From: a virus
IMG/VR virus record: IMGVR_UViG_3300020201_000066
Span: 1-34,060 of that record
Direction: 5' to 3' (one strand)
Length of the DNA stretch: 34,060 nucleotides
Shown here: positions 1 through 34,060 of the stretch, in pieces
Position numbering within the stretch: the stretch's first letter is position 1
Layout of the letters: every line of letters starts with the position of its first letter
Notes under the pieces: generated by a model
What the model saw: only the letters and a program-made list of their open reading frames with translations
Told to the model about the DNA's origin: nothing
Databases searched by the model: none
Translations under genes and position numbers: made by a program

Positions 1-125
1 CACCAGCGGGAACCGAAAAAAGCACGGAACCCTGGGAACGTGCCATGCGTCGCGCGGGCGATTGCGGGTCGTGGACTCGGCGCGCTACGGGGTCCCAAGT
101 TCCGGCCAACTTCCAAACGCCATGG

Positions 126-155
126 TTGACGCGAGGGGCTCCGGGGTGTCATATT
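126..155 (+). promoter_or_regulatory. candidate sigma70-type promoter before the late operon
   Basis: TTGACG at 126-131 (five of six to the -35 consensus) and CATATT at 150-155 (four of six to the -10 consensus) are separated by 18 bp. A start point about 7 nt downstream would fall at or next to the ATG at 164, which has no Shine-Dalgarno sequence, so the first message could be nearly leaderless. This comes from the sequence pattern only. Positions 1-163 otherwise show open frames in all three plus frames but no recognisable protein. Confidence 0.3.
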
Positions 156-163
156 CCTGCCAG

Positions 164-589
164 ATGGAGCCTGAAAAGCACCCTGAAGGCCCTGAGCAGG
201 GCCTGAGAACCTCACAGCAGGTTACACGGGTCAAACGCACGCAGCGTGAAACTCAGTTCAAACCCGGCGTGAGCGGTAACCCGGGGGGGATGTCCCGCAA
301 GCGGACGGTCACCCGCGAAGTCGAGCGCATCCTCCTCAGCGAACGGAACGCCGAGGCCAAGATCCTGGCGCGGGCGATCATCGAGAAGGCGAAGGCCGAC
401 CCCTCGGTGCTCAAGATCCTCCTCGACCGCGTTGAGGGTCCGATCGAGCAGCGCGTCCACCAGACGGGCGACGTCGGCCCGCAGTTCGTGGTCAGGATCG
501 TCGATGGTGCGTCACGCGAGGAACCCCTCGAGGTTGATGCCGTGGAGATCGACGCGGTGAGGCTCGAACTCGACGAGATTAACCCGTGA
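164..589 (+). CDS. DUF5681-type protein, putative terminase small subunit
   Basis: A protein of 141 residues. The N-terminal part carries the DUF5681 signature FKPGVSGNPGG followed by a basic SRKR stretch (about residues 48-62). A helical region with EVERILL, ILARAIIEKA and SVLKILLDRVEGP follows, then an acidic tail. DUF5681 proteins are commonly encoded just before the large terminase and are taken as small-terminase-like DNA recognition subunits, and the large terminase lies about 2 kb downstream here. The frame is open leftwards to the window edge with another start at 62. ATG 164 is preferred because residues before it do not look protein-like and a promoter-like sequence ends just upstream. 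Its stop overlaps the next start as GTGA. The small-terminase role is inferred from family and position. Confidence 0.6.
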   Translation: MEPEKHPEGPEQGLRTSQQVTRVKRTQRETQFKPGVSGNPGGMSRKRTVTREVERILLSERNAEAKILARAIIEKAKADPSVLKILLDRVEGPIEQRVHQTGDVGPQFVVRIVDGASREEPLEVDAVEIDAVRLELDEINP

Positions 590-1308
590 TCGAAGCGCCG
601 CGCACGCGCTCGCGTGATGCGTGGCACCACGTCTACGGATCCCTCGCAGGATCCCGCGTGGTCATCGTCGGCAACAGCCCTAGCGCGACCGCTGAGCGCC
701 TCGAGGTGCTGCGGCATTCCTATCACGTGGTCATCGGAGCCAACCGCATCTGCCGCATTGCCCCCGAAGGCACCATCGACGTCGTCGTCGTCGCGGACAT
801 CGGCATCCTCGAGAGCGCGACCGACAGCGCGGCAATCGTGAAGCAAAAGCCCGTCGCAGTCTTCGCGCATTCCAACGTTTTCGGCGATCCGGCTGCGCCT
901 CACCCGATCCAGACTCGCGGGGTCTACGTCGCAGAGTTCGAGCTTGCCGGCGAGCACGACCTCGAGCTTCCGAAATCCAAGACCGACCCGATCATGCGCA
1001 CGGGCTCGTGCCCTGCGATGGCGGTGCAGATGGCGGTGCTACTGGGAGCTGCTGAGGTCGCGCTCCTCGGGGTGGATCACACCGCGCCCGAGCTGCGTGC
1101 GATCGGGGCGCCGACGCACTGCTACGCGACAGGCGACGACGTTGGCCCGCGCCGTCCGACCGGGGGGAGCGACACCCTTCGCGCGATCCAGGTCTACCGC
1201 GCGATCCGCATCTGGGCCGAGTCGCGCGGAGTCCGATGCGTCAACCTCTCACCCGTGAGAGACGCCCCGATCCATAAAGCAGGTTGGGAGCGCTGCCCCG
1301 TAGACTGA
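586..1308 (+). CDS. MptE/DUF115-like or sialyltransferase-like Rossmann protein
   Basis: A protein of 240 residues starting at GTG 586, which overlaps the previous stop. A beta-strand/glycine loop VVIVGNSPS occupies residues 25-33. A second conserved part around residues 140-169 reads TGSCPAMAVQMAVLLGAAEVALLGVDHT. This pairing, a GNxPS loop near the start and an S..A...A..LGA..v.LLG.D block later, is typical of DUF115/MptE-like proteins and of GT42 sialyltransferase-like folds, which bind nucleotide-activated substrates. It sits inside the terminase cassette. The substrate cannot be told from the sequence; roles could include glycan or nucleotide modification of phage or host components. The fold assignment is moderately safe, the activity is not. 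Confidence 0.5.
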   Translation: MIEAPRTRSRDAWHHVYGSLAGSRVVIVGNSPSATAERLEVLRHSYHVVIGANRICRIAPEGTIDVVVVADIGILESATDSAAIVKQKPVAVFAHSNVFGDPAAPHPIQTRGVYVAEFELAGEHDLELPKSKTDPIMRTGSCPAMAVQMAVLLGAAEVALLGVDHTAPELRAIGAPTHCYATGDDVGPRRPTGGSDTLRAIQVYRAIRIWAESRGVRCVNLSPVRDAPIHKAGWERCPVD

Positions 1309-1505
1309 TGCCGCGTGCCCAGATCCGAGCCGACGGCACCGACCCGCAGAGCCGCATGATTGCGATGATGCGCGCGGCCGGCGGCACGGTCACGAAGCAG
1401 CAAGCGCACGCGGAATGCGGCTGGGGCTACTCCATGGTGATGCACGCGCTTGAGCGCCGCGGTATCGTCACGCGCGATGGGATGGTCTGGCGGCTGGTGA
1501 GATGA
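1308..1505 (+). CDS. small winged-helix-like protein
   Basis: A protein of 65 residues. ATG 1308 overlaps the upstream stop as TGATG; an alternative TTG at 1284 would add eight residues inside the previous gene. The sequence has a helix (SRMIAMMRAAGG), a turn and second helix (TVTKQQAHAECG), a recognition-helix candidate (YSMVMHALERRG) and a wing-like strand pair (IVTRDGMVWRLV), as in compact winged-helix DNA-binding domains. It could be a small regulator of the late operon or a packaging accessory. Its stop overlaps the next start as ATGA. The function is not recognised beyond the fold. Confidence 0.5.
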   Translation: MPRAQIRADGTDPQSRMIAMMRAAGGTVTKQQAHAECGWGYSMVMHALERRGIVTRDGMVWRLVR

Positions 1506-1678
1506 AACAGTCCTTCGCCTTCACTGCCGCGGGCATCGATCTGCTGGATGGTCCGGCGGAACACTCGACGATCGCGTCTCAGGTCGACTCGGTTGGCCGT
1601 TGGCACGCGACGTTCGTCGTCGCTCCTGGGCCCGCACGCTGGCTCATCGATCCGCTCCCCGTCGCGCCAACGCGGTGA
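1502..1678 (+). CDS. small hypothetical protein
   Basis: A 58-residue frame starting at ATG 1502, which overlaps the previous stop as ATGA, and ending at TGA 1676-1678, which overlaps a GTG (1675) of the methyltransferase frame. It fills the gap exactly with the same start-stop coupling seen throughout this operon, and its third codon positions are GC-rich like those of its neighbours. The product starts MKQSFAFTAAGIDLL and ends WLIDPLPVAPTR, with no recognised domain, signal peptide or membrane segment. It is supported by operon geometry, not by similarity. Confidence 0.45.
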   Translation: MKQSFAFTAAGIDLLDGPAEHSTIASQVDSVGRWHATFVVAPGPARWLIDPLPVAPTR

Positions 1679-1683
1679 ACGAC

Positions 1684-2685
1684 ATGGAGAAAGCGACCCT
1701 GGCTGCCCCGTTCCCGTACTTCGGCGGCAAGTCGAGAGCGTGCGGCGTCGTGTGGGCCGCGCTTGGAGATCCGCCGAACTACGTCGAGCCGTTCGCTGGA
1801 TCGCTCGCGATGCTGCTGGGCCGCGCCGGCATCGGCAAGACAGAGACGATCAACGACCTCGATGGGTTCGTGGCGAACTTCTGGAGGGACGTCTCCAAAG
1901 ACTGGGAAGCGGTAGCACACCACGTCGATTGGCCCGTCAACGAGAGCGACCTGTTCGCCAGGCACTCGTGGCTGGTGCGCAAGTCGGCGGACTTGCTTGA
2001 GCGCCTGCACGGCGACCCGGATTACTTCGACGCGAAGGTAGCAGGCTGGTGGTGCTGGGGCTTGTGTGCATGGATCGGAAGCGGTTGGTGCAGTGGCACG
2101 GGCCCGTGGCTACACGACGGCCAGACGCTGACAAAAATCAAGGGCCCGAGGGGCGAGGGCGTGAAACGGCAACTGCCGGACCTGCATGCGGGCCGTGGCG
2201 TGAACCGGCGGCTTCCAGTTGGTGTGGTGTCCCGCACCGAATTCATCCGCGAATGGTTCGAGGCTTTGTCCGAGCGCACGCGGGACGTGCGGGTTGCTGC
2301 GGGCGACTGGCAGCGCGTGCTGACGAAAAGTGTGACGACGCGGCAGGGGCTGACCGGTGTCTTTCTCGACCCGCCGTACACCGCAGGCAATGTGGACTAC
2401 GCCGTCGGCGGTGTGGGCGGCCCACTGGCTGACGCGGTGCGAGACTGGTGCGCATCCAACGGAGACAACGAGCAAATGCGCATCGTGATCTGCGGGCACG
2501 CGGGGGAGCACGACGCGCTGCTCGATCTTGGATGGTTCACCCGAGCTTGGAAAGCTCGTAGTGGCATGGCCTCGACCGATGAGGCGAATGCCCGCCGCAT
2601 CTCCGAAACCGTGTGGTGCAGCCCCCATTGCGTGCGAGTCCCTGCGCCCGCGTCCGTGGTGTCCTCTCTTTTCTCTGCCGGGTGA
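1684..2685 (+). CDS. D12-class DNA N6-adenine methyltransferase
   Basis: A protein of 333 residues from ATG 1684; GTG 1675 would add three residues and overlap the preceding stop. It has the D12-family layout: PYFGGKS at residues 11-17, the AdoMet-binding motif YVEPFAGS at 33-40, and the catalytic motif DPPY at 229-232 preceded by a hydrophobic strand. The region between holds the variable target-recognition part. Such enzymes transfer a methyl group from AdoMet to N6 of adenine, often in GATC-type sites; the target here cannot be read from sequence. It lies between the terminase genes, so it is likely expressed late and may mark phage DNA before packaging to evade host restriction. No restriction partner is visible. 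Confidence 0.88.
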   Translation: MEKATLAAPFPYFGGKSRACGVVWAALGDPPNYVEPFAGSLAMLLGRAGIGKTETINDLDGFVANFWRDVSKDWEAVAHHVDWPVNESDLFARHSWLVRKSADLLERLHGDPDYFDAKVAGWWCWGLCAWIGSGWCSGTGPWLHDGQTLTKIKGPRGEGVKRQLPDLHAGRGVNRRLPVGVVSRTEFIREWFEALSERTRDVRVAAGDWQRVLTKSVTTRQGLTGVFLDPPYTAGNVDYAVGGVGGPLADAVRDWCASNGDNEQMRIVICGHAGEHDALLDLGWFTRAWKARSGMASTDEANARRISETVWCSPHCVRVPAPASVVSSLFSAG

Positions 2686-3968
2686 CGCAACACTACACAT
2701 GGCGCGTCTTCGGGCCGCAGGGGCCGTTCCTTCGCTCGACCGCGGATGAGTGCCTTTACTCCGGCGCGGTGCGTGGCGGCAAGACCGTCGCGGCATGTTT
2801 GAAGGTCGTCACGCGCGCGAGCGTGCCAGGCGCACGCGAGGGCATCGGCCGCAAGCACGCGAACACGATCAGGCCGACGACCCTCAAGACGCTGCTCGAA
2901 GGCGATGGTGTCCTGCCTCCCGTGTTGCCTCGCGGCAGCTACGAGCACAACCAGCAGCGCGCCGAAATCAAAATCCACGGCTGCGGTGAGATCGTGTACT
3001 TCGGGCTCGATGACCCGCTCAAGATCGGTTCGCGTTCGCTTACCGGATTCACCGGCGATGAGGCGTTGGAGTTCGAGAAAGCCGACTATGACATGCTCCA
3101 CACGCGCGTCTCGCTCGACGTGCCGGGCTTGAAGAAGCAACTCAACTGGGTGACGAACCCGGGGCCTCCGACGCATTGGCTGGCCGAGCAGTTCGGCATT
3201 CTTGACGAGTCGCTCGCGCTGCCCGGGACCGAGGTCTTCCGCACCACCACGGCGGACAACCCGCACATCGGCGCGGACTACATCGCGCGGCTGCAACGCC
3301 AGATGAGCCCCACCAACTACCGGCGGCTGGTGCTCGGGCAGTGGGTCGGCGCGGAGGGGCTTGTGCTCGACAACTGGGACCGCGCGATCCACATGCAGGA
3401 CCGAGAGGGGCCCTGGGAAATGACCGTCGTGGGGATCGACGACGGCGTGGCGGATCCGTTTGTTGCGACACTGGTTCACGTCGACGGGCGCGGCCGGATC
3501 CACGTCGAGCGCTCCTGGTACGCGCACGAGCTGACGGTCGCTAGCAAGATCGCGCTGGTGCGTGAGCTGATCGCTCCGCACATGCGGACGTTCGCTGTGT
3601 GCGTCGTGGACCCCAGCGCCGCGCAACTCAAGGTGGACATGATCGGCGCCAACCTCCCGGTCATGGACGCCGACAACTCGGTGATCCCGGGCATCGAGCG
3701 CGTGCGGTCTGCGCTCGGCGTGCCGCTCGGCGAGATCTTCCCGCGGCTGACCTTGGCCTCCGCGTGCGCATCATCCCGCGAGAGCATGCGCACGCCGCCT
3801 CCGCCTGGCGGCCTAATGCGCTCGCTGATCGGGGAGATCGAGAGTTATGAGTGGCGGCGGGTGAAAGGCGAGGCGCGCGAGATGCCCGAGCACCGCGCAT
3901 CGCACGGGCCGGACAGCCTCCGGTACGCGCTGAGCCGCCTGGGGGCCATTGGCCCGGTCGTGTTCTGA
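2682..3968 (+). CDS. terL: phage terminase large subunit
   Basis: A protein of 428 residues starting at GTG 2682, which overlaps the methyltransferase stop as GTGA. The N-terminal ATPase has Walker A GAVRGGKT at residues 28-35 and a Walker B-type segment with GFTGDEA near 122-128. The C-terminal RNase H-like nuclease has acidic residues in GIDDG (about 252-255), VVDPS (about 309) and GPDSLRYAL (about 409), as expected for the metal-binding triad. It forms the packaging motor that docks on the portal, translocates DNA and cuts genome units. Its length is normal for the compact terminase families. The packaging type (cos or pac) cannot be decided from this window. Confidence 0.92.
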   Translation: MTQHYTWRVFGPQGPFLRSTADECLYSGAVRGGKTVAACLKVVTRASVPGAREGIGRKHANTIRPTTLKTLLEGDGVLPPVLPRGSYEHNQQRAEIKIHGCGEIVYFGLDDPLKIGSRSLTGFTGDEALEFEKADYDMLHTRVSLDVPGLKKQLNWVTNPGPPTHWLAEQFGILDESLALPGTEVFRTTTADNPHIGADYIARLQRQMSPTNYRRLVLGQWVGAEGLVLDNWDRAIHMQDREGPWEMTVVGIDDGVADPFVATLVHVDGRGRIHVERSWYAHELTVASKIALVRELIAPHMRTFAVCVVDPSAAQLKVDMIGANLPVMDADNSVIPGIERVRSALGVPLGEIFPRLTLASACASSRESMRTPPPPGGLMRSLIGEIESYEWRRVKGEAREMPEHRASHGPDSLRYALSRLGAIGPVVF

Positions 3969-3974
3969 GGTTCT

Positions 3975-4247
3975 ATGCTTCGGCTTTGCTTCGGCTATGC
4001 TTTTGGCATGGACGACCACTCGAAACTGCACCTTCTGGCCGATGCGTGTGCCCCCGACCTGGCGGGATCGCTGAAGAAGTACAACGCCGAAATAGCGTTC
4101 CACGCCGCCATGGAGGCCGCGGGATATGTGACCTACCGGAACACCGGGAGGCGATACCGAACCCCATCCGGGGGCTACCGGAGTTCACTCGTCCGGGCCG
4201 CCAAAGCTTGGGCGACGCCAGCCCGACCCCCTGGGTCCCCCGAATGA
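3975..4247 (+). CDS. small hypothetical protein between terminase and portal
   Basis: A protein of 90 residues from ATG 3975, seven bases after the terminase stop, with GAGG at 3967-3970. A second possible start is ATG 4008 (MDDHSKLHLL), directly after an 11-bp tandem repeat; the first eleven residues (MLRLCFGYAFG) would then not be made. The body is helical with DLAGSLKKYNAEIAF and a basic C-terminal half. No known domain is recognised. Position between terminase and portal is common for small packaging accessory or head-completion proteins, but nothing here proves such a role. Confidence 0.5.
   Translation: MLRLCFGYAFGMDDHSKLHLLADACAPDLAGSLKKYNAEIAFHAAMEAAGYVTYRNTGRRYRTPSGGYRSSLVRAAKAWATPARPPGSPE
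3976..4008 (+). repeat. three tandem 11-bp repeats
   Basis: TGCTTCGGCTT, TGCTTCGGCTA and TGCTTTTGGCA follow one another without spacers. The first two differ at one base and the third is more diverged. The array lies between the two possible starts of the gene at 3975 and is richer in T than its surroundings. It may be replication slippage or a protein- or RNA-binding element. Confidence 0.6.
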
Positions 4248-4303: not shown

Positions 4304-6487
4304 GTGAACGGTGCTCGATTCATCACTGAGGCCGCAGCCAGCGTGCGCGCGGCCGCAAAGACGGTCACCCGCGGCGGGATGGCGCTCGGAGCGTACGGCA
4401 CCGGGCCGCTGGCAGGGGCTGGCGGCGTGGCCATGCACAGCCTCGCTATCCCCGGGATGGCTGAGAGCTGGCACGGCGGCACGCTAGCGATTGCCCGCCT
4501 TCGCCTGCGCGGCAGCGACGCAATCGAGCAACCGTACACGCAGCACTGGCTCGTTCACCTTTGCATCCGCAAACGCGCCGAGCTGCTCTCGGACATGCCG
4601 CTCGCGCTGTGGACCGACCGCTCCGACTACGCGACGAAGCTCCAGTCGCACCCGATTCTCGATCTGCTCGCACGGCCCAACCCAGTGATGGGTTCGCGCT
4701 TGTTTTTGAAAGCAACCGAGATCTATCGGTTGCTCGACGGCGAATGCTTTTGGGCCCGGCTCGACGAGCGGTACCTGCCGACCGCAGATCCCATCCCGGC
4801 GCACCTGATGCCGATCCGCGGCTCGCAGGTCCAAGCCGAAATCAACTCCAGATCTGGCGTCGTGGAGCGGTACCGGTACACCGGCGACGCGACGATGGAG
4901 TTCTCCCCGCAGCAGATCGTGCGGATCTCCGAATTCAATCCCTACGACCCGGTGCGCGGTTTGGGGCTGGCCCACATCACGCTGCGCCAAGCCGATCAGG
5001 ATTACCAGCTCGACCGCATGACGGATGCGCTGGTGAACAACGGCGGGCAGCCGTCGATTGTGCTGTCTTCGGATCAGATGCTGACGCCGGACCAAGGCAG
5101 GCAAGCGAAGGAGGTATCCGACGAGAAGCTCAGGGAAGGCGGAACGCTGATCCTCACGCAAGGATTGAAACCGGTCAACGAGGCCTTCACACCCGTTGAA
5201 ATGGCGTTCATGGAAGGCCGCGTGTGGAACCGCGACGCGATTATTGCCGCGTTCGGATTGAACCGCGTCGTCCTCGGGTTCGTGGAAGACATCAACCGCG
5301 CAACGGCCCAAGAGGCTATCGCGGTCGCGCTGGAGCAGACGATCATCCCGGCGGCTCACGACGTCGAAGAACAGATCCAGTCGCAGCTAGTCGACGTTGC
5401 GGCACCGGGTCGCGGCATCGTCATCGGCTTCGACTCATCCGGCATGACGGCGCTGCGAGCTAGTCGCGATGCGCAGGTCGCGCGCGTCAAGACGTGGGTC
5501 GATATGGGCCTGACGGTCCAAGCGGCTGCACGGCTGGAAAACATCGAGGACGACATCGCGGATGCGGACATCAAGCCGTTGCCGCCCTCGTTGCCCGCTT
5601 TCCCGTTCGAACAGCAAGCGCCCGCGGTGCATCGGCGCATGCGGCTCGACATGCAGGACGACCGGCGCGCGGTTGCGTGGCACGAATACGCCGCCGCGAC
5701 GCGTGCGCAGGACAACGAGCTACAGACGCTCTTCGCCGGGGCTCAACGAGCGTACCTGCGTGCGGTGAGTAAGCGCGTCGAAGACATCGCAGCGGGCGAC
5801 GGCCTGAGCGGGACCCTCAAAGCGCAGAGCAAGGCCGACGTCGAAGCGATGATGGCCGCGCTTGCGGATCTGATGCCGTCCGACATCGGGTTTGCGGACG
5901 CGCTCAAGCAGCCGTTCGCCGCAACCATGGCGAAGATCCTCGACGTTCAAGCGCGGACGATCGCGCGCCGTTTGGGCAAGTCGGCCGCGCTGTTTACGGC
6001 TCAGTCGCCCGCGGCCGCCGCGTTCCTCGGAACGAAGGCGATCAAGGTCACCGAAGGCACGATGAGCACGCTTGCCCGCTTCACGCGCCGGCAGATCGCG
6101 GAGGCGCTGGTCGCGGAAAGCTACACCGTCTCATCGGTCGCGGTCGGGCTGCGCGCTCAGTTGGCGCGGATCAAGACGATGGTTCAGGCGACCTCGCAGC
6201 AGATCGACGCGCGCGCGATGACGATCGCACAGACCGAAGCTGGCGCGGTCGCGAACTTCTCGCGCGTGACCGAGATGCGGCTGATCGGGCTCAAACGGCA
6301 CGAGTGGGTCACCAGCCGCGACGAGAACGTCCGCGACACGCACGCGCCGCTCGATGGGCAGGTCGTCGAGATTGGCGCGCAGTTTTCGAACGGGCTGCGC
6401 TGGCCGAACGATCCGCAGGGCGACGCGGGCGAGGTCATCAACTGCCGGTGCACGGTTGTAGGGGTCTTTGACGAGGGAGAAGAATGA
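4304..6487 (+). CDS. portal protein fused to a MuF/SPP1 gp7-type head morphogenesis domain
   Basis: A protein of 727 residues. The N-terminal two-thirds is HK97-type portal: the clip/crown entry HWLVHLCIRKRAELLSDMPL, a receptor segment with PNPVMGSRLFLKATEIY, and YDPVRGLGLAHITLRQ. The last 75 residues carry the MuF signature: a W..RDENVRDTHAPLDG core, then LRWPNDPQ and the closing E.INCRC. Portals form the dodecameric DNA gate; MuF-domain proteins join the procapsid and are often ejected with DNA. They are usually separate genes, so this is a fusion within one continuous frame. GTG 4304 has GGGAG directly abutting it; ATG 4379 is an alternative start. Its stop overlaps the protease start. Confidence 0.87.
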   Translation: MNGARFITEAAASVRAAAKTVTRGGMALGAYGTGPLAGAGGVAMHSLAIPGMAESWHGGTLAIARLRLRGSDAIEQPYTQHWLVHLCIRKRAELLSDMPLALWTDRSDYATKLQSHPILDLLARPNPVMGSRLFLKATEIYRLLDGECFWARLDERYLPTADPIPAHLMPIRGSQVQAEINSRSGVVERYRYTGDATMEFSPQQIVRISEFNPYDPVRGLGLAHITLRQADQDYQLDRMTDALVNNGGQPSIVLSSDQMLTPDQGRQAKEVSDEKLREGGTLILTQGLKPVNEAFTPVEMAFMEGRVWNRDAIIAAFGLNRVVLGFVEDINRATAQEAIAVALEQTIIPAAHDVEEQIQSQLVDVAAPGRGIVIGFDSSGMTALRASRDAQVARVKTWVDMGLTVQAAARLENIEDDIADADIKPLPPSLPAFPFEQQAPAVHRRMRLDMQDDRRAVAWHEYAAATRAQDNELQTLFAGAQRAYLRAVSKRVEDIAAGDGLSGTLKAQSKADVEAMMAALADLMPSDIGFADALKQPFAATMAKILDVQARTIARRLGKSAALFTAQSPAAAAFLGTKAIKVTEGTMSTLARFTRRQIAEALVAESYTVSSVAVGLRAQLARIKTMVQATSQQIDARAMTIAQTEAGAVANFSRVTEMRLIGLKRHEWVTSRDENVRDTHAPLDGQVVEIGAQFSNGLRWPNDPQGDAGEVINCRCTVVGVFDEGEE

Positions 6488-7371
6488 AGCTCGAAGCAAG
6501 CGATCGACTGCGCCTGGTGCGCCTGTTCGCCGCGGATATCGCGACGCCGTCTCAGATCGAGACGATCGATGAGCAGATGGCGGCGTCCGCGCGCGTGCTG
6601 CCGATGCGTCGGTCCGTCGCGTATAGCGTCCAGCCCGAAGGCGGGTTGCTGCGGTTCGTGATCTCCGACGAGCGGGTCAACCGCTACGGGGACATCGTGC
6701 GGCAAGACGGATGGAAGCTAGAGAACTTCCGCCGCAACCCCATCGCGCTTTGGGGTCATGACTACGACCAGCCGATTGGCACGTGGACGGACATCCGCAC
6801 CGAGATGCTCGATGGTGGCAAGGTCACCACGGGCGCGGTTCGCTTGGCTTCCGAAGCGAGCGAGGACATTGCGCGCATTGACCGGCTGGCCCGTGCGGAC
6901 GTGCTGAGGGCGGTCTCGCCCGGCTTTTTGAATCTGAAAAGCCGCAAGCCCGCAAACGATGAAGAGCGCGGTCGCCTGGGCCTGGGCAAGTACGGGGTCG
7001 AACTGCTCGAAAACGAGCTTCACGAGATCAGCTTGGTCTCGGTCGGTGCGCAGCCCGGCGCGCTCAAGATGAGCGTCGAGGCCGGTCACATCACGGCAGC
7101 CGACGCCGAGTACATCGAGCGATCGAGCCCGCAGACCGAGCGCGAGATCCTGCGCACGCACGAGCGAGATATCGCGCTGTCCTCGACGCTGCGCATCAGC
7201 GCGCTTGAAGGCTCGATCGCCGCGCGCCTGGACGCGCAGGGCGCAGAGCTGAGCGAAATCAAGCGGCTGCTCATGCGTCGGGTCGAGTCCGACGCGGAGC
7301 TTGCTGCACCTGCGTACTTCGCTGCGCTGGACCGAGAAATGGAAGCCGCACTCCGGCAGATCGCCACATGA
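6484..7371 (+). CDS. HK97-family prohead protease (S78) with a C-terminal helical extension
   Basis: A protein of 295 residues; ATG 6484 overlaps the portal-MuF stop. It opens the protease fold with FVISDERVNRYGDIVRQDGW. The candidate catalytic histidine is H92 in LWGHDY and the serine S145 in RAVSPGF, followed by the typical ELHEISLVSVGAQPGAL block. These enzymes cleave scaffold or delta regions from capsid subunits during head maturation. After about residue 205 comes a charged helical region (TEREILRTHERDIAL, SEIKRLLMRRVESDAE) that is absent from minimal proteases and could act as scaffold. The first downstream capsid protein lacks an obvious delta domain, making this possibility worth noting. 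Confidence 0.88.
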   Translation: MKLEASDRLRLVRLFAADIATPSQIETIDEQMAASARVLPMRRSVAYSVQPEGGLLRFVISDERVNRYGDIVRQDGWKLENFRRNPIALWGHDYDQPIGTWTDIRTEMLDGGKVTTGAVRLASEASEDIARIDRLARADVLRAVSPGFLNLKSRKPANDEERGRLGLGKYGVELLENELHEISLVSVGAQPGALKMSVEAGHITAADAEYIERSSPQTEREILRTHERDIALSSTLRISALEGSIAARLDAQGAELSEIKRLLMRRVESDAELAAPAYFAALDREMEAALRQIAT

Positions 7372-8381
7372 CACAGTTACAGCTTACGCGAGCGTTCCGG
7401 CTTGCGGCTTCCTCTTATTATCGGTCGCAGATCACGCTGCGCGACTTCGACGAAGAGTCGGAAGCGTCTCGGCAGTACGCGATGACGAACGACGCGGACG
7501 CTGCGGCGCTCGTGCCGTTTACCGCGCTGACGGATAGCCTGATCCCGGAGATTGCATCCGAGAGCATTACCGAGCGCATGGGTGCGCGCACGTTCGCGGG
7601 AATGGTCGGCAACGTCGTCATCCCGACGGACGAAGGCGGTATCCGGTTCACCCCGCAGGACACCGAAGCTGCGGAATCGAGCACGCCAGCATCGACCGCA
7701 TTCGGCGCGATCATGCCGGAGATTTGCGTCCTCACCGCGGAAATCCCGGTGTCGTTCGCGTTCTTGAACACTTCGGGCCCCGCGCCTGAAGCGTGGCTGC
7801 GACGCATCATCGCGCGCCGGTTCGCTGCTGACCGCGACCATTACGCGCTGCAAGGTAGTGGCGTCGACGGCAACGTTATGGGTATCGCCAGCGCGCCTGG
7901 CGTCAACGCGGTTTCGTTCGCTGGAGCCACGTACACCGGCGCATCGCAGACCATCACGAGCCTGCTCGATGATTTCTACTGGTTGGCGGTCGACAACGGC
8001 GGCGAACTCGGGTCGAGCCGCTGGGGTTACGTTGCCGAGCCCGCGGTCGGGCGCAAACTGAGCCGGGTCAAGTCGACAACTGGCAAGGACGTCCTGTTTC
8101 CATTTGGCAAGCGCGAGCTGATGGAGCACTCCGTCGGCTGGTCGCGGCTCGCTCGCGCAAGCTTGAGCACCGCCGGCACGACCGACGCGGGCCTCTTCTT
8201 CGGCGACTTCTCTCGCATGATCCACATGCTCTGGGGAGCGCTTGAGATCCGCATCGTCGAGTCCGGCGACGACGCCAAACGCGGCCGTGCGAGGTTCATC
8301 GCGCGCGCTCCCTACTCCGTGGTGCTCGAGCGCCCGGAATCCTTTTCCCGCGCTACGTCCTTCACCGTCGCGCTGTCCTAG
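7368..8381 (+). CDS. HK97-fold major capsid protein, copy 1 (no obvious delta domain)
   Basis: A protein of 337 residues; ATG 7368 overlaps the protease stop. Typical HK97-fold elements are the GMVGNVVIP strand, the helix ARRFAADRDHYALQG followed by GNVMGIASAPGV, and a C-terminal A-domain with FFGDFSRMIHMLWGALEIRI, then DDAKRGRARFIAR and a final FSRATSF. It is clearly related to the next gene, which shares GMVG, the IAR.FA..RD helix, the G.PGV turn, FGD.S.M, DDAKR.R and CRATS/SRATS landmarks. The N-terminus (about 45 residues) is too short for a canonical cleaved scaffold. It may be the hexamer or pentamer subunit of a two-protein shell; which one is unknown. Confidence 0.82.
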   Translation: MTQLQLTRAFRLAASSYYRSQITLRDFDEESEASRQYAMTNDADAAALVPFTALTDSLIPEIASESITERMGARTFAGMVGNVVIPTDEGGIRFTPQDTEAAESSTPASTAFGAIMPEICVLTAEIPVSFAFLNTSGPAPEAWLRRIIARRFAADRDHYALQGSGVDGNVMGIASAPGVNAVSFAGATYTGASQTITSLLDDFYWLAVDNGGELGSSRWGYVAEPAVGRKLSRVKSTTGKDVLFPFGKRELMEHSVGWSRLARASLSTAGTTDAGLFFGDFSRMIHMLWGALEIRIVESGDDAKRGRARFIARAPYSVVLERPESFSRATSFTVALS

Positions 8382-8395
8382 TCCGAGGAATAACA

Positions 8396-9685
8396 ATGTC
8401 CCAAGTAGATATCCCCCAGGAGGTCAAGGCCACGCTGGGGAAACTGACCGAGAGCGTGCAAAGCCTGCGCGCAGAGCGCGAGTCGGCCGACAAGCTGACG
8501 CGCGACGAGCTGGCCGCCAAGATCGAGGCGCAAGACGCGACGATCGCGAAGCTGCAAGCGTTCGCCGACACCGCCGAGAAGCACCAACTCCCGGGCCTGG
8601 AGCTGGAAACCGCTGCAAAGCCTGGGTTCTCGCTGTTCCGCTGCATGCAAATCGCAGCCAGCGAACTCAAGAACGGCGGCCAGCGCATGGGCCGCGACCT
8701 GATGTCGGACAAGACGTACGGGCTCGAGATCGAAGCCATCAAGCAGTACGCGAGCCAGACGGGCCAGTCCTGGGCCGACGGCGGAATCCTGATCCCGCAC
8801 GTGGTCCAGGCCAACGCCATCATCCCGCTTCAAGCTCGGATGAGCGTCGGCGCGAGGCTCGGCGTGACTCAGATGTCGGGCATGGTCGGCACGATGGAGT
8901 GGCCGGTCGAGGGTATCGACCACATCGCTTACTACGTCGACTCCGAGGCGATGGGAGCGACCACCTCGAGCGCGACCACGATGGGTTCGAAGAAGGTTTC
9001 GCCGCATCTCATGGGAGCGGACACCAAACTCTCTTGGGGCATGCTCACGCAGACCGCGGGAGCGATGGAGCAAATCGCCAACCGCAAGATCGCGCGCGCG
9101 TTCGCGCTGATGCGTGACCGGATGCTGATCCACGGCTTGGGCACAGACAAGCAACCGCTTGGCCTGAAGCTGACCCCGGGCGTTCTCACTCACTCGTTCA
9201 GCGGCGTTCTCTACAACCACGTCCCGAGCGACGTCGGTGCAGGTACTGGCTCGCAGACGATCACCGACGCGTTGGGCGCGATGTACTGGAAGATCCAGGC
9301 CGCGGAATACAACGACGGTGCCGAGAGCCCCTTCAAATACGCCGGCCAGAAGAGCGTTGGCGCGCGCATGGGGCGAGCCAAGAACGCGATGGGCACGAAC
9401 CTGTTCACAGGTTTTGCCAGCGCTCAAGTCGGCGCATTCGACGGCTACCCGATGGTCTGGTCAAACCAGGTCGGTGCGCCGACTCTGGTCGACACCGGCG
9501 CGGAACTCTGGTTCGGTGACTGGTCGCAAATGGCTGACCTGTCCTGGATGGACTTCCGCCTTCGCGCAACCGAGGTCGACGACGACGCCAAGCGCGCTCG
9601 CGTGACCATCATTGCGCACCAGTCGCACGACCTGCTGTGCCTCCAACCCACCGCGTTCTGCCGTGCGACGTCGCTCGACGTCTGA
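8396..9685 (+). CDS. HK97-fold major capsid protein, copy 2 (with N-terminal delta/scaffold domain)
   Basis: A protein of 429 residues from ATG 8396, with GAGGAA eight bases upstream, a better ribosome binding site than copy 1. Residues 1 to about 65 are a charged helical segment (LGKLTESVQSLRAERESADK, then AKIEAQDATIAKLQ), the classical delta scaffold cut by the prohead protease. The body has GGILIPHVVQANAI, GMVGTMEWP, IARAFALMRDRMLIHGLG and the C-terminal FGDWSQMADLSW, DDDAKRARVTI and CRATS. It is a paralogue of copy 1, not a frameshift remnant: both frames are intact and differ greatly in sequence. The strong ribosome binding site and own scaffold suggest it is the main shell protein. Confidence 0.88.
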   Translation: MSQVDIPQEVKATLGKLTESVQSLRAERESADKLTRDELAAKIEAQDATIAKLQAFADTAEKHQLPGLELETAAKPGFSLFRCMQIAASELKNGGQRMGRDLMSDKTYGLEIEAIKQYASQTGQSWADGGILIPHVVQANAIIPLQARMSVGARLGVTQMSGMVGTMEWPVEGIDHIAYYVDSEAMGATTSSATTMGSKKVSPHLMGADTKLSWGMLTQTAGAMEQIANRKIARAFALMRDRMLIHGLGTDKQPLGLKLTPGVLTHSFSGVLYNHVPSDVGAGTGSQTITDALGAMYWKIQAAEYNDGAESPFKYAGQKSVGARMGRAKNAMGTNLFTGFASAQVGAFDGYPMVWSNQVGAPTLVDTGAELWFGDWSQMADLSWMDFRLRATEVDDDAKRARVTIIAHQSHDLLCLQPTAFCRATSLDV

Positions 9686-9706: not shown

Positions 9707-10132
9707 ATGAGCTTCACCAATGCCGGTTTCGGCACCAAGGCCGTGATGATCGGCCGCGCCAACGTGGCGACTGCGCTGACGTCGGTCCCTGCCGATCGCC
9801 TCGGCTTCGACGACGCACTGATCGTGCTTTCCCATGGAGCTGTCGCCGACACCCGGACCGTGACGGTCAATATCCAGAGTTCGGCGACGTCGGGCGGGTC
9901 CTATACGACCATCACCGGCGCGTCGCATGTTGTTGCCCCCGCGGAGGACGACCTGCTCGCATCCATCGTCTTTCATGTCGATCTTCGCGGCGCGCAGCGA
10001 TTCATCCAGGCGACCGCCACCGTCGGCGGGTCTGGCGATTTCACCACTCACGTGATCGCGGTACTCCAAAGCGCCAAGTACACGCCTGACTCCGCGCCGG
10101 TTCTCGTCACTGTGCCGACCCCGGCGGCGTGA
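9707..10132 (+). CDS. putative head decoration/cement protein
   Basis: A protein of 141 residues with a strong ribosome binding site (AGAGGAA about seven bases before ATG 9707). It is rich in beta strands and small residues, for example TVTVNIQSSATSGGSYTTI and AQRFIQATATVGGSGDF, with no signal peptide or membrane segment. Small beta-rich proteins with this pattern commonly follow the capsid gene and are thought to cement or decorate the shell. A perfect 17-bp inverted repeat follows its stop, closing the highly expressed capsid group. The role is inferred from position and composition; a tail or unknown structural role remains possible. Confidence 0.5.
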   Translation: MSFTNAGFGTKAVMIGRANVATALTSVPADRLGFDDALIVLSHGAVADTRTVTVNIQSSATSGGSYTTITGASHVVAPAEDDLLASIVFHVDLRGAQRFIQATATVGGSGDFTTHVIAVLQSAKYTPDSAPVLVTVPTPAA

Positions 10133-28110: not shown

Positions 28111-28490
28111 CGCAGCATCTCCTCGATGGGGTCCAGCGCATCGGCGCCATATCCTCGGTCAGGGTCGCCGCACTCGCGCGCGCGCGCAGCCACCGCATAC
28201 GCCCAGCGCATGAAGTCCTCGATCTCAGACGTTGGAACCGTGCGGCATTCGGGATCCGCCATGCGCTTGAAGAGCTGCACGAGCGCAGCTTCGTCCCTCA
28301 TCGAGTGGTAGATGACGAGGACCTCGCGAGCCCTGCGATAGAGCACCTCGGCGGTGGTGCCGGGCATCCAGCCCGCGTAGCATGCGCGCTGCACGCTCGC
28401 AGGCAAGCGCGCGACTGCGTCGTCCATCGCAGCGACGTCGAGCCCGAGCTTGCGCGAAGCGAATCGCATCATGGCCATCGTCTGGCTCAC
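28107..28490 (-). CDS. hypothetical protein
   Basis: A protein of 127 residues starting at GTG 28490, which overlaps the stop of the spike-like gene. It is mostly helical, with ASRKLGLDVAAMDDAVARL, EVLYRRAREVLVIYHSM, a LVQLFKRMADPE segment and an acidic C-terminal GADALDPIEEML. Much longer open frames continue upstream to 28844 but lie antiparallel within another gene, and the coupled GTG is preferred. No family is recognised. It is translationally coupled on both sides in a three-gene set that starts with the spike-like gene. Confidence 0.5.
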   Translation of the reverse strand: MSQTMAMMRFASRKLGLDVAAMDDAVARLPASVQRACYAGWMPGTTAEVLYRRAREVLVIYHSMRDEAALVQLFKRMADPECRTVPTSEIEDFMRWAYAVAARARECGDPDRGYGADALDPIEEMLR

Positions 28491-30034
28491 GGGACCACCT
28501 GCGCGGGCGGGCCGAGCACCACTTCGAGGGTCGCCCAGCTCTCGGCCTGGCCCGACACCGTGAGCGTGCCCACGTCCTGGTTGAGCGGGACGCTCCCGAC
28601 GCGGACCTTCTTGGCGCGCTCGAGACCCCCGAAGGCTCCGTGGATGTTGGCCTCGTCGGACGATGGGCCAGGCATGTCGATGTGCGCGACATCGATCGAC
28701 GAAAGCATGATCGGCTCCCGGTCGGGCCGAAAGAAAGTCTCCGTCGTCGTGCTCAGCGCCGGGGTGCGCACGTCGAAGCGCCCGATGTGGCGCCCGCTGG
28801 GGAGCTTGTGAACCCCGCCATTTGCCGAGTCGGGCTCGCCCCACGCCACGATTAGAGCGTTGTGGGACCAGTCGATCTTGTGCGTGTCCAGCTCAGACAC
28901 GAATGTAGGGTTTTCGATCAGGACGGTCCCGCCGTGGCCGGACACGGTGATGCACCCGCCGCCGCCTCCAGACAAAAACTTGTCCGCGATATCGAATGTG
29001 CAATCTCGCAGGTGGATCGTGCCGTACGACGGCGGGCCTTCAAGGACACGGTTCGTGTGCTGGATGCCGCACCGACGGCTGACCGGGAAATGCACGCGAC
29101 GCGCGTAGATCCCGCCCTGGGTGTTCTTGACGTAGAGCATGTGCTCTTGGACTGTGGCCGTGCCTCCCACATCCACAAACCCAAGGCGCCCCTCGCGGTA
29201 CATGTTGGCGTGCCACTTCTGGGGGCTGCCGCCGTAATCGCCTCCAGAACTCGCCGATTCAAGCTCGACCGACGAGAAGATCCTGGGGGTGCCGATCGCC
29301 ACAGACATGTGTATGGCTATCGCGTTCGCCCCCTCCGCGTAAACGGTGTGGTTGTGCACCCAGGTGGCCATGCCACCTGTGCCCACGGAGACGAATCCGA
29401 GGCTGGCGCCGCCGCGGATGAGCACCGGTCCCGCGTGGCTTTTGGCGACCGATGATGCGCTGGTTTGCCCACACTTCCACCCGACCGGGTAGGGGCCTCC
29501 CTCGCCCACTTCGACTTCGACGATGCCCCAGGGCCCCGCCAGATTGGCGGCGTGCCCAAGATGGCTCGCCTTGTTGAGCGCGATGCCCGGGGATCCGTGG
29601 ACCGAACCGTACCAGGCGCCGGAAGCGTGGAACACTACCACGGTCTTGCCGGTGAAGAACTGCACAGGGTCGGTGCCCTCGCGGACGGCTGCCAGGAACC
29701 CTTCACGGTCCACTTGGTCCCCGCCCGGCAGCGCGAGGAAGTCATCCGCGAGCAGTTGGGCGACGTCCTCGTGATGTCCCCATTCGTTGATCGGGCCACT
29801 GCCCGGCGGTTCGGTGACCTCCGGCGGATCAACGACGACAGGCGGAGCGATGACGGGGGGAGCGCCATAGAGCCGAAGGTCCTGCTCGCCGAGGATGCTG
29901 AACAGCATGTGCATTTCGGCTTTTAGCCCCGCGTGCTGGATCGGATTCAGCTCGTGGACGAGCTTGCCGACCGACATCCCGTAGTGCATCGCGAGCGCGC
30001 GCAGATGCGTGTTGTTGACTTCTTTGATGTTCAT
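28487..30034 (-). CDS. beta-helix spike-like protein
   Basis: A protein of 515 residues from ATG 30034; an alternative ATG at 30097 would add 21 residues and leave a 17-base gap to the upstream gene. Neither start has a clear ribosome binding site. A helical N-terminal domain (HLRALAMHYGMSVGKLVHEL) of about 60 residues precedes a proline-rich linker (PPVIAPPVVVDPPEV). The rest is glycine-rich, with short strands repeating at about 20-30 residue spacing (LIRGGASLGFVSVGTGG, VYAEGANAIAIHMS, TIHLRDCTFDIADKFLSGGG), as in right-handed beta-helix proteins such as phage tailspikes that bind or degrade surface polysaccharide. Unlike the other tail genes it lies in the minus-strand block. Beta-helix is inferred from pattern, not from catalytic residues. 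Confidence 0.55.
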   Translation of the reverse strand: MNIKEVNNTHLRALAMHYGMSVGKLVHELNPIQHAGLKAEMHMLFSILGEQDLRLYGAPPVIAPPVVVDPPEVTEPPGSGPINEWGHHEDVAQLLADDFLALPGGDQVDREGFLAAVREGTDPVQFFTGKTVVVFHASGAWYGSVHGSPGIALNKASHLGHAANLAGPWGIVEVEVGEGGPYPVGWKCGQTSASSVAKSHAGPVLIRGGASLGFVSVGTGGMATWVHNHTVYAEGANAIAIHMSVAIGTPRIFSSVELESASSGGDYGGSPQKWHANMYREGRLGFVDVGGTATVQEHMLYVKNTQGGIYARRVHFPVSRRCGIQHTNRVLEGPPSYGTIHLRDCTFDIADKFLSGGGGGCITVSGHGGTVLIENPTFVSELDTHKIDWSHNALIVAWGEPDSANGGVHKLPSGRHIGRFDVRTPALSTTTETFFRPDREPIMLSSIDVAHIDMPGPSSDEANIHGAFGGLERAKKVRVGSVPLNQDVGTLTVSGQAESWATLEVVLGPPAQVVP

Positions 30035-30114
30035 GTGGGAGCTGATGGGTGTTCGATGCCTAGACGCGACCGTCGCGCCGATGCGCTGCACGGCCATGCT
30101 ACAGGTTGCGCGAT

Positions 30115-30549
30115 CTAGGGTGCTGTTTCATCTGCGGAGCTGGCCCGGATATGCACCCCTTCGCCGGTCGATGCGAACCGCTTGCGCGCGCGCAAGTCCG
30201 TGATCTGCGCATCGTAGATCAGCCCGATGCACGCGTCTTCGACCAGTTTGACGAGATTCGTGAGGTCTGGCTTGCCCACGTGGTGCCGCCCGTTGTCGAC
30301 CTTGTTGCCCGCGAACACAAACGTCAGGTCGATCCGCACGGGGCTGCCCGCAGCGAACAGCGGAGCGGTCAAGCCCCTCGCGATGAGCGCGCGACGCACT
30401 GCGGTCGCTACCGCTCCGAGCGCGTCCCGCGAGCGCTCAGGCGTCACCCCTCGAGCGCGTCCGCCGCGACCTGCGACGACCATCGCTCGAGCCAGCGGGA
30501 CCGGGCGCCCAGGGACAAAGCATTCGAAGGCCAGCGAGTGGCTGATCAT
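30115..30549 (-). CDS. RusA-like Holliday junction resolvase
   Basis: A protein of 144 residues; ATG 30549 overlaps the RecT stop in ATGA manner. The family core reads GKPDLTNLVKLVEDA at residues 92-106 then YDAQITDLRARKRF at 112-125. This matches the RusA sequence around its active site: D95 aligns with D70, N98 and K101 with the conserved DN..K pattern, and D113 with D91. Residue 97 is threonine where E. coli RusA has the catalytic D72. RusA enzymes resolve four-way DNA junctions and commonly sit with RecT genes in phages. A longer frame upstream to 30849 is inside recT and is rejected. Confidence 0.75.
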   Translation of the reverse strand: MISHSLAFECFVPGRPVPLARAMVVAGRGGRARGVTPERSRDALGAVATAVRRALIARGLTAPLFAAGSPVRIDLTFVFAGNKVDNGRHHVGKPDLTNLVKLVEDACIGLIYDAQITDLRARKRFASTGEGVHIRASSADETAP

Positions 30550-31397
30550 CGCGCGCCCTCCTGATCCGCCGCAGTCGTCCCGTCGTCGTACACCACGCGG
30601 TCGCGAAGGTCGTCGTCGTCTTCCTGCCCCGCTGCGTCTGGCGCCGCATCCGGTGCCGCGAGCAACTGGTGCCGCAGGTCGGCGATGCCCGGCTCGGCAC
30701 GCCGCGCGGGCGAAGCGACGTCGCGCATGTCGTACTCCGTCGAGTCGGCCGCAGCCAAAGCTGAAGCGTCGTCGACGCTCATCGGGAGCCACTTCATCAG
30801 ACGACGCACCGCCGTCTTCTTTGCCATCTCGTCCCAATCGGTCACCCACGGACCGGAGCGGGCGGCGCGCGACCGACCACGCACGCGCTCGACGTCGGCG
30901 ACCGTCAGGACGACGAACTGTGAGCAGCCGTCCGTCAGTTTGGCGACGGCGTAGATGTACTGCACTCGCCGGTCACCCGCGGCGAGTGATGGCTTGTGCC
31001 TCAGCTGGGGCTCCAGCCCCATTTCATATTCGAACACGTCACCCTCGCGCACGACCTCCGCGTAGATCATCGAGACCTTCCCGGACCGTCGCGCCAGCGT
31101 CAAGAGCCCCCGATAACCGACAATCAGCGTGCAGTCCGCGCCGTACGGCACCAGGTACACGGAACCAAACGGATCCGGAGCGAGACCCAGCTCGCTGCAC
31201 GTCATCACGCATTGCATGACCGAGACCGGCGTGCATTGCAGGATCTTCGGGTTGCGACTCACCGCTACCCCGACGATCTTCAGGAGCTTGTCAGCGCTCA
31301 AGTGCGCGGTCGCGATCTGCTCGATCGACTCGCGGCGCGTCTCCAGAAGTTGAACCAGCGCCGCGTTGGGGCTGAGCCCCGTGTTGTTGTTCACCAT
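30546..31397 (-). CDS. recT: RecT-family single-strand annealing protein
   Basis: A protein of 283 residues with GAGGAAG upstream of ATG 31397. RecT family features are clear: MQCVMTCSELGLAPDPFGSV, the YLVPYG and LIVGYRGLLTLARRSG segment, and YAEVVREGDVFEYEMG, then YIYAVAKLTDG. The C-terminal 80 residues are acidic and low complexity (GQEDDDDLRDRVVYDDG), typical of variable tails. RecT coats and anneals single strands made by the exonuclease encoded next to it. The gene overlaps the exonuclease stop by seven bases, showing translational coupling of a two-component recombination system. Confidence 0.9.
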   Translation of the reverse strand: MVNNNTGLSPNAALVQLLETRRESIEQIATAHLSADKLLKIVGVAVSRNPKILQCTPVSVMQCVMTCSELGLAPDPFGSVYLVPYGADCTLIVGYRGLLTLARRSGKVSMIYAEVVREGDVFEYEMGLEPQLRHKPSLAAGDRRVQYIYAVAKLTDGCSQFVVLTVADVERVRGRSRAARSGPWVTDWDEMAKKTAVRRLMKWLPMSVDDASALAAADSTEYDMRDVASPARRAEPGIADLRHQLLAAPDAAPDAAGQEDDDDLRDRVVYDDGTTAADQEGAR

Positions 31398-32362
31398 GTG
31401 ATCTTCCTCTGCTTGCCGACCTTGTCATCCCACCGGAACACCCGGCAGGTCTCCTCACCGACCTTTGTGCGCTCGAACACTGAGCGCGTTTGCGTCTTCC
31501 AACTCGCGACCTTAATGCCCCCGATAAGCGCAGATTCGGCGCAGCCCATGCGCTGCATGATCGACGCTTTGATCTCGTCCAAAGCCGAGTCGGCGGTCTT
31601 TTTGGCTCGGATCGCAGCTTCAAGATCCTCCAGCAGGATCGACTCGACATCGACGGACGTGCTCGCCACCGTGTCGCGGTGCCATTCGCGCAAATGCGGC
31701 ACGTCGTCGCCAGTCGCGGAAGGCTCGCGCCCATCGCGCACCGCGGCCCAGAAGTCTACCAGCCGCTCAAGGATCGCGCTCGCAATCGCCTCGTCCTTGT
31801 CGATGTCGTGCCACAGCAAACGCACGCCGCCGATCACCGCCGCGCACGTGTACCAGGTTGTGCCTGCGCACTCAGCTTGCCAGAGACCCTGGATCGTGAC
31901 CGCGATCGGCGGCTCGTACTCCCACCGCCCCATCCCATAGGCCCAGTGCTTGAGCTCAAGCGTGGACGGCCCGCGATGAGCGTCGACCTGGATCGCATCA
32001 GGAGACGCGTGCAGTCCGCGGACGTGGGGATGCCGGAATATGATCGAAGAGCCTCCGAGGACCTGGATCTCCCTCCCAGTCCGGCGCACGTATCTGTGCG
32101 CGTTCGCTTCCTCGTAGGCCAAACCGGCTTCCTGCGCCTCGGTCTGCGCATCGTCGATCCCGCTGGTCCCTTCGTCGTCCTCCGGTGGGGGGATCGACGA
32201 CGCGCGAGCCTTTCCAAGCTCCACGCGCAGCCGGTGGTACACCGACAGCGGGCTACCGTAGGAGGAATGCCCGAGGATGGCTGCGACATCGGACGCGCCG
32301 ATGCTGCACCGCCGCGCCGCAAACCATTCGTCGCGCGTGGCGTAGGCCTCGAAGGCTCTCAT
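31391..32362 (-). CDS. YqaJ-family viral recombinase exonuclease
   Basis: A protein of 323 residues from ATG 32362. The N-terminus has the YqaJ signature W13, R17 and IGASDVAAILG at 21-31, followed by GSPLSVYHRL. Nuclease motifs follow: GLAYEEANAHRYVRRTGR, the PDAIQVD segment and LELKHW with the E-K pair of the PD-(D/E)XK core. It degrades one strand of double-stranded DNA to feed the RecT partner downstream, as lambda exonuclease does for Beta. The C-terminal 100 residues form helices not found in minimal members. It overlaps neighbours on both sides. Confidence 0.87.
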   Translation of the reverse strand: MRAFEAYATRDEWFAARRCSIGASDVAAILGHSSYGSPLSVYHRLRVELGKARASSIPPPEDDEGTSGIDDAQTEAQEAGLAYEEANAHRYVRRTGREIQVLGGSSIIFRHPHVRGLHASPDAIQVDAHRGPSTLELKHWAYGMGRWEYEPPIAVTIQGLWQAECAGTTWYTCAAVIGGVRLLWHDIDKDEAIASAILERLVDFWAAVRDGREPSATGDDVPHLREWHRDTVASTSVDVESILLEDLEAAIRAKKTADSALDEIKASIMQRMGCAESALIGGIKVASWKTQTRSVFERTKVGEETCRVFRWDDKVGKQRKITW

Positions 32363-32547
32363 TTGCGGATGCCTCCGCCGTCTCGGGTCTTTGCGCTCTG
32401 AGCGGCTTCGCGGATCAGACGCCGCACGACCCAAGCCTTGGTCCTGTCCAAAGAGTGCGCGATGGTCTCCAGATATTCCGATGTTTCCAGGTCCAGCTCC
32501 ACGGTCATCCGCTTGCAGAAGTGCGCGGATTTCTTGGTCTTCTTCAT
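32359..32547 (-). CDS. ribbon-helix-helix protein
   Basis: A protein of 62 residues. ATG 32547 has AAGGAG nine bases upstream. A basic start (MKKTKKSAHFCKR) is followed by the RHH pattern: a strand MTVELDLETSEYL, a helix LETIAHSL, a turn DRTKA, and a second helix WVVRRLIREAAQ. RHH dimers bind DNA as regulators or antitoxins. It lies before the exonuclease gene and overlaps it in ATGA manner, so it is more likely a regulator of this recombination operon than an antitoxin, as no toxin neighbour is seen. Confidence 0.7.
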   Translation of the reverse strand: MKKTKKSAHFCKRMTVELDLETSEYLETIAHSLDRTKAWVVRRLIREAAQSAKTRDGGGIRK

Positions 32548-32572
32548 TTGATTTCTCCTTTGCCCTTCTGAT
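32543..32572 (-). repeat. 30-bp translation-start repeat, copy 1
   Basis: This segment and 33883-33912 differ at 3 of 30 positions. Each holds the AAGGAG ribosome binding site and ATG of the downstream gene (32547 and 33887). Confidence 0.65.
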
Positions 32573-32735
32573 GGCCGCGGACCATTTCCAGCGCCATGCC
32601 GAACCCGATGGCTGCACAGCCGCCGATCGCGAGCATCGCGGCCGGATGAGCGAAGCCATAGACGCCGATGCAGACCAGGCCAGCGACCCATGCCGCCGCG
32701 CCTGCCCAGAGGATGAGGTCGACGGTGTGATTCAT
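32544..32735 (-). CDS. small two-helix membrane protein
   Basis: A protein of 63 residues from ATG 32735, overlapping its neighbours on both sides. Two hydrophobic stretches (LILWAGAAAWVAGLVCIGVY and AAMLAIGGCAAIGFGMALE) are separated by a short turn, and the C-terminus is basic (RGHQKGKGEIK). It would lie in the inner membrane. The family is not recognised; the early operon position suggests an accessory or superinfection-exclusion type function rather than lysis, but that is inference. Confidence 0.5.
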   Translation of the reverse strand: MNHTVDLILWAGAAAWVAGLVCIGVYGFAHPAAMLAIGGCAAIGFGMALEMVRGHQKGKGEIK

Positions 32736-33912: not shown

Positions 33913-33929
33913 CCTCGTGGCCGAAGCCA

Positions 33930-33948
33930 GGGGTTTGTGGTTTGTGGT
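33930..33948 (-). repeat. short tandem heptamer repeat between minus-strand genes
   Basis: Reading the minus strand, ACCACAA is repeated twice in tandem and followed by ACC. It occupies the only sizable gap (33888-33947) between minus-strand genes at this end. It could be a regulatory element for the downstream genes or a simple repeat. Confidence 0.35.
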
Positions 33949-34060
33949 CAGTTGTCGAAGTCGTCGTCGTCCGGCTCGCGGACTTCCGTCAGCTCGCCGC
34001 AGTCTGGGCATTCTTCGGGTTCTTCGGGGTCATCCCCTTCGCCGGGATCATCTTCCCACC
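33948..34060 (-). CDS. partial acidic protein with a zinc-ribbon-like CPDCG motif
   Basis: Only the last 37 residues lie in the window, as the gene runs off the right edge. They are strongly acidic (EDDPGEGDDPEEPEE), contain a CPDCG knuckle and end with EPDDDDFDN and a TGA stop at 33950-33948. CxxC with an acidic tail suggests a small zinc-binding protein, and acidic tails in phage early genes often mediate protein contact. The start and any N-terminal domain are outside the window, so the function is unknown. Confidence 0.5.
   Translation of the reverse strand, partial: WEDDPGEGDDPEEPEECPDCGELTEVREPDDDDFDN

Follow-up and report, generated by a model that had tools for sequence, protein, structure and literature searches.

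Two tandem HK97-family major capsid proteins, most likely duplicates, in the head module of a freshwater tailed phage

The head module of a freshwater tailed phage was found to encode two different HK97-family major capsid proteins, here called MCP1 and MCP2, in consecutive genes that most likely arose by duplication, and two different subunits probably make up the shell of this virus. Small tailed phages normally form both pentamers and hexamers from one capsid sequence by conformational switching. The record analysed comprises 34,060 bases, and the whole of this stretch is referred to below as the window. The features of the head module, in window coordinates, are as follows.

2613–3968: TerL, in the head module
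4304–6487, plus strand: portal protein with a C-terminal Mu-F-like domain (PF04860, 1e-43; PF04233, 8e-12)
6484–7371, plus strand: HK97-type (S78-like) prohead protease of 295 aa (phrog_617 positions 20–223, E=6e-20)
7368–7371, plus strand: ATGA in which the protease stop and the MCP1 start overlap, in the −1 frame, read from the sequence
7368–8381, plus strand: MCP1, HK97-family major capsid protein without a delta domain of its own (ATG start, 337 aa, intact ORF)
8384–8395, plus strand: GAGGA Shine-Dalgarno region of MCP2, inside the 14-nt intergenic gap (anti-SD duplex −5.9 kcal/mol)
8396–9685, plus strand: MCP2, HK97-family major capsid protein with an N-terminal helical delta-like domain (ATG start, 429 aa, intact ORF)
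8396–8620, plus strand: N-terminal delta-like (scaffold) domain covering approximately residues 1–75 of MCP2, assigned from TIGR01554 and phrog_617 coverage and preceding the FSLFRCMQ motif
9707–10132, plus strand: small protein after MCP2, a possible head decoration protein by position (phrog_5707, E=7.5e-12; no Pfam match)

The identification of MCP1 and MCP2 as HK97-family major capsid proteins is well supported by sequence profiles. The Pfam family PF05065 matched MCP1 with E=8e-17 and MCP2 with E=1e-20, and the NCBIfam model TIGR01554 gave 52 bits for MCP1 (positions 95–319) and 82 bits for MCP2 (positions 3–380), both above the cut-off of 27.5 bits. In PHROGs the pair was matched by phrog_617 and phrog_10, with MCP2 lying on positions 218–621 of phrog_617. 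A family profile from which both window proteins had been left out recovered MCP1 at 1e-21 and MCP2 at 2e-29 with hmmsearch, hhalign against the family alignment excluding both gave 99.0% and 99.5% respectively, and none of 1000 shuffled versions of MCP1 scored against the family profile. Comparison of MCP1 with MCP2 gave 31% identity over 357 columns (E=1e-39). The nearest solved capsid is that of R4C, a phage with a 36-kb genome; MCP2 matched its capsid chain (8gta) with E=7e-6 and profiles that include MCP1 matched the same structure at 1e-23 and 1e-7, while MCP1 alone reached no PDB capsid chain with phmmer. The fold assignment rests on these profiles, as the single-sequence AlphaFold models of the two proteins had pLDDT values of 30.8 and 34.8, too low for use. 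The first-pass annotation had described two different, strongly diverged HK97-type capsid proteins in tandem that share the landmark blocks GMVG, IARxFAxxRD, FGDxSxM, DDAKR and RATS. This description is borne out by the intact reading frames, the matches in three family collections, the presence of every named block in the pair and the low identity between the two proteins. Both proteins also contain A-domain insertions that are absent from relatives and lie close to the expected capsomer-axis position, the longest being in MCP2 (YNHVPSDVGAGTGSQTIT, window 9200–9265).

The core of the prohead protease contains a GH motif (H91), a VSPGF motif (S145) and the sequence HEISLVSV at residue 180, and ends at about residue 180–193. 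The protease scored 28 bits against TIGR01543 and 20 bits against the protease/MCP fusion model NF045541, both under the cut-off. Following the core is a C-terminal tail of 100 aa (residues 196–295), situated where fused relatives have their delta/scaffold segment. In most relatives protease, delta and MCP form a single polyprotein of about 600–840 aa, the arrangement of the phrog_617 polyprotein family, whereas here they are divided among three separate ORFs. When the protease was joined to MCP1 the distance from HEISLVSV to the capsid start motif was 119 residues, compared with 118–182 in 14 fused relatives and 118–120 in the CRP phages. As this spacing is within the range of the fused relatives, MCP1 lies in the ancestral position, with the cut immediately downstream of the delta region. 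The N-terminal delta domain is an optional rather than a required feature of the HK97 fold family, and it is carried by the MCP2 chain but not by that of MCP1 (TIGR01554 alignments beginning at position 3 and position 95). The earlier view that only the second protein has a scaffold-like N-terminal domain is therefore correct for the two capsid ORFs, but needs the addition of the 100-aa protease tail at the place of the delta segment. No sequence similarity could be detected between this tail and delta domains, so that any homology between them is by position only. A programmed frameshift from the protease into MCP1 was considered and rejected: the −1 geometry is present, no slippery heptamer was apparent by eye, and coupling through the ATGA overlap is simpler.

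MCP1 and MCP2 were sisters in trees of 19 and 25 sequences, with support of 100/100 and 100/99. Trees constrained to place MCP2 in the S-LBS1 group were rejected by the AU test (p=0.003), as were those joining MCP1 to the CRP-823 group (p=0.002). Long-branch attraction is a concern because both MCP branches are long, but the derived features shared by the pair count against it. Just before the mature N-terminus both proteins have about 30 residues fewer than their relatives, and both have an extra residue giving DDAKR and a C-terminal RATS. Duplication within this lineage is the most likely origin that the sequences indicate, and the chimeric shell raised in the first-pass annotation, if taken as one drawn from two unrelated sources, is contradicted by the sister relationship and the shared derived features. 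If instead a capsid gene from another lineage had been taken up beside the first, this would fit the observation that MCP2 has more unique matches to the S-LBS1 group than MCP1 has. This xenologous origin was given hardly any credence, being largely refuted by the trees (support of 100 and 99–100) and the AU test (p about 0.003), with the shared deletion and insertions also against it. The branch leading to MCP1 is the longer of the two (2.14 compared with 1.02). This rate asymmetry is used weakly here, as Tajima-type counts showed it only against the S-LBS1 group and not against every outgroup. Of 92 family-conserved positions, 37 were kept in MCP1 and 37 in MCP2.

The same arrangement was present in L001, a contig assembled independently from a different metagenome, in which protease, MCP1 and MCP2 were all intact and the DNA identity to the window was about 98.9% over 6.1 kb. 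This rules out an assembly artefact. A third contig terminates within MCP1, and the 98 MCP1 residues visible in it are intact. Between the window and L001 there were 18 nucleotide and 2 amino-acid differences in MCP1, the latter close together, and 11 nucleotide and 1 amino-acid differences in MCP2. The resulting dN/dS values, about 0.17 for MCP1 and about 0.03 for MCP2 from few changes, point to retention of both copies under purifying selection, the counts being small. Peptide-pattern searches of IMG/VR using MCP1, MCP2, portal and TerL returned only two kin contigs, and kin were absent from two bacterial-genome scans and one plasmid scan.

The window record is incomplete, since the kin contig L012 bridges its ends through sequence that is absent here. 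Positions 1268–1400 and 7277–8964 of L012 join window 33928–34060 to window 1–1664 across about 5.9 kb, so that on a circular map the genome measures about 40 kb; genes for a DUF3987 protein and a DEAD/ResIII helicase lie in the absent 5.9 kb. Several other regions of the genome were noted. The 266-bp stretch between TerL and portal (window 3969–4234) is about 14 bp long in both kin contigs, and the small ORF found between these genes (3975–4247) had no Pfam match. Window positions 1665–2680, approximately, did not align to one kin contig despite flanks of 96–99% identity and are possibly an exchangeable cassette; a D12-class adenine methyltransferase-like ORF (1600–2685) lies in this region. 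The ORF at 586–1308 gave weak matches to the phage sialyltransferase family phrog_4603 and, under the cut-off, to the MptE-like family PF01973. On the minus strand, a RecE-like exonuclease, a RecT-like annealing protein and a RusA-like resolvase are encoded consecutively at 30115–32659, and a 536-aa ORF at 28487–30097 had no PHROG or Pfam match.

Relatives of MCP1 or MCP2, at approximately 22–29% identity, turned up at 157 additional IMG/VR loci in two pattern scans; at 89 of these the flanking sequence extended for at least 1.3 kb on one side and at least 1.1 kb on the other. A family-HMM scan of these loci found a single MCP in all 157 and no second copy. The loci should not be counted as independent: at 90% identity the first 79 collapse into 8 clusters. 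In these scans the pair was seen only in the window's own kin contig. When the S-LBS1 capsid was used as a query against a phage reference set, 90 records were matched at 90 places, again with no second copy; this search may miss a very diverged second copy, and the HMM approach applied to the IMG/VR loci has the greater sensitivity. Overall about 250 single-copy relatives were sampled, and the literature searched yielded no siphovirus for which a shell of two MCPs has been characterised. The earlier suggestion that tandem capsid proteins are unusual for a compact siphovirus agrees with the lack of a pair in the 157 viral loci and the 90 phage records.

As only 14 nt separate the two plus-strand genes, MCP1 and MCP2 are probably carried on one transcript. 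The GAGGA Shine-Dalgarno of MCP2 is at good spacing, while MCP1 has no recognisable Shine-Dalgarno (anti-SD duplex −2.8 kcal/mol); these strengths were scored against a generic anti-SD, which may differ from that of the host. MCP1 probably relies for its translation on coupling to the protease gene. A single transcript with unequal ribosome sites predicts less MCP1 than MCP2.

The R4C shell is a T=7 assembly of 415 copies of one MCP arranged as 11 pentons and 60 hexons, and the penton subunit shows its strongest bending in the E-loop and N-arm (PMC10276861). In relatives a single MCP supplies both kinds of capsomer, and hence a second protein is not required for this purpose. In the model preferred here, the ancestor would have had one protease-delta-MCP polyprotein gene, as in the relatives, of which the delta-MCP part was duplicated in tandem. 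The first copy would then have been severed from the delta segment by the ATGA stop/start overlap, leaving the protease with its tail, MCP1 and delta-MCP2 as consecutive coupled genes, and the two copies would both have continued to serve in the shell. The abundant lattice (hexamer) subunit would be MCP2, which carries a delta domain and has a strong ribosome site. MCP1, coupled behind the protease, would be the minority subunit and would most likely make up the pentamers at the vertices, the part played by gp24 alongside gp23. A T=7 head would be in keeping with the genome size of about 40 kb, and for it approximately 55 copies of MCP1 and 360 of MCP2 would be expected. MCP1 would enter the prohead without a scaffold of its own, relying on the delta domains of MCP2 and possibly on the helical protease tail, and the protease would trim both proteins before expansion, with cleavage predicted near residue 126 of MCP2 and residue 43 of MCP1. 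We infer that both proteins would be found in virions, with this division between capsomers, these copy numbers and a scaffold acting in trans. A hexamer/pentamer division is plausible by the precedent of T4, together with the unequal ribosome sites and unequal branch lengths, and the 55 vertex positions would be the simplest use for a minority paralogue. The complete T4-like scheme, with MCP2 in hexamers and MCP1 in pentamers after duplication and loss of the delta domain from MCP1, is offered tentatively, as a reading with a good but not prevailing chance of being right.

The main rival to this hexamer/pentamer model is that both proteins are in the shell but mixed within capsomers, as hetero-hexamers or through random co-assembly, and tune the stability or size of the head. 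The common fold family along the whole length, at 31% identity, and the coupling of the two genes in one module would allow such mixing. However, the putative interfaces are as diverged as elsewhere (24–27% in the N-arm, E-loop and A-domain, with the domain borders for these values, like the predicted cleavage sites, taken from the alignment rather than from a structure), which makes interchangeability less likely, and the unequal start sites suggest an unequal dose, so that mixed capsomers were judged unlikely. The lack of a delta domain, the position directly behind the protease and translation by coupling would also suit an MCP1 that is not a shell subunit of the virion, acting instead in assembly, as an internal or scaffold-like protein or a head-size switch, or else marking a special vertex near the portal. 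MCP1 retains all of the major capsid-family blocks including the C-terminal end, which would be unneeded for pure scaffolding, and a role of this kind is quite doubtful. Very little probability was assigned to MCP1 being a redundant duplicate that is decaying and does nothing essential. Its longer branch and the closeness to each other of the two amino-acid changes that separate it from the kin contig could be read in this way, but the gene is intact in two independent assemblies and over 98 residues of a third, its dN/dS is about 0.17, and paralogues at 31% identity are old, so that an unneeded 1-kb gene should by now be gone from a compact phage.

The T4 shell, with gp23 in hexamers and gp24 at the vertices, likewise uses two HK97-fold paralogues; gp24 probably derives from gp23 by duplication (PMC9958956), and by their sequences MCP1 and MCP2 also appear to be a paralogous capsid pair formed in this way. 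The present virus differs from T4 in being a siphovirus with about 40 kb of DNA, whose head module is of the protease/delta-MCP type rather than T4-like and whose capsid paralogues, 31% identical, belong to the R4C/phrog_617 family. No T4 family was among the PHROG, Pfam and NCBIfam matches, the nearest being phrog_617 and R4C. The fused siphophages S-CBS1, S-LBS1, RcCronus, R4C (8GTA) and CRP-823 share the capsid family and the protease-delta-MCP order, but have one polyprotein gene and one MCP where there are three genes and two MCPs here. In HK97 the protease (gp4) is also separate and MCP2 resembles gp5 with its delta domain, but HK97 has a single MCP. A protease gene with a helical tail, placed before an MCP without a delta domain, may recall the order of lambda C/Nu3 followed by E; unlike here, the lambda head module has a single MCP. 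The phages of Porphyromonas gingivalis encode a prohead protease of 354 aa with a long C-terminal part, followed by a short MCP of 301 aa. Their protease is akin to that of the window (34% over the core), but they have only one MCP, which is not detectably in the capsid family of MCP1 and MCP2. The Arthrobacter cluster AP siphovirus RazzB is annotated with a "major capsid hexamer protein", and no pentamer protein is named (PMC13014141). This implies that a two-protein shell has been considered for a siphovirus; the likeness is by annotation only, and the cluster AP genome is 69.5 kb compared with about 40 kb here.

Taken as a whole, the picture of a compact T=7-class siphovirus with an independently evolved two-subunit shell, in which the vertex subunit has no covalent scaffold and is supplied with one in trans by its paralogue and the protease tail, is rather unlikely to hold in every part. 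Such a virus would be a second, independent case beside T4 in which to ask why and how a virus gives its vertices their own protein, and the pair may bear on whether every subunit must carry a covalent scaffold.
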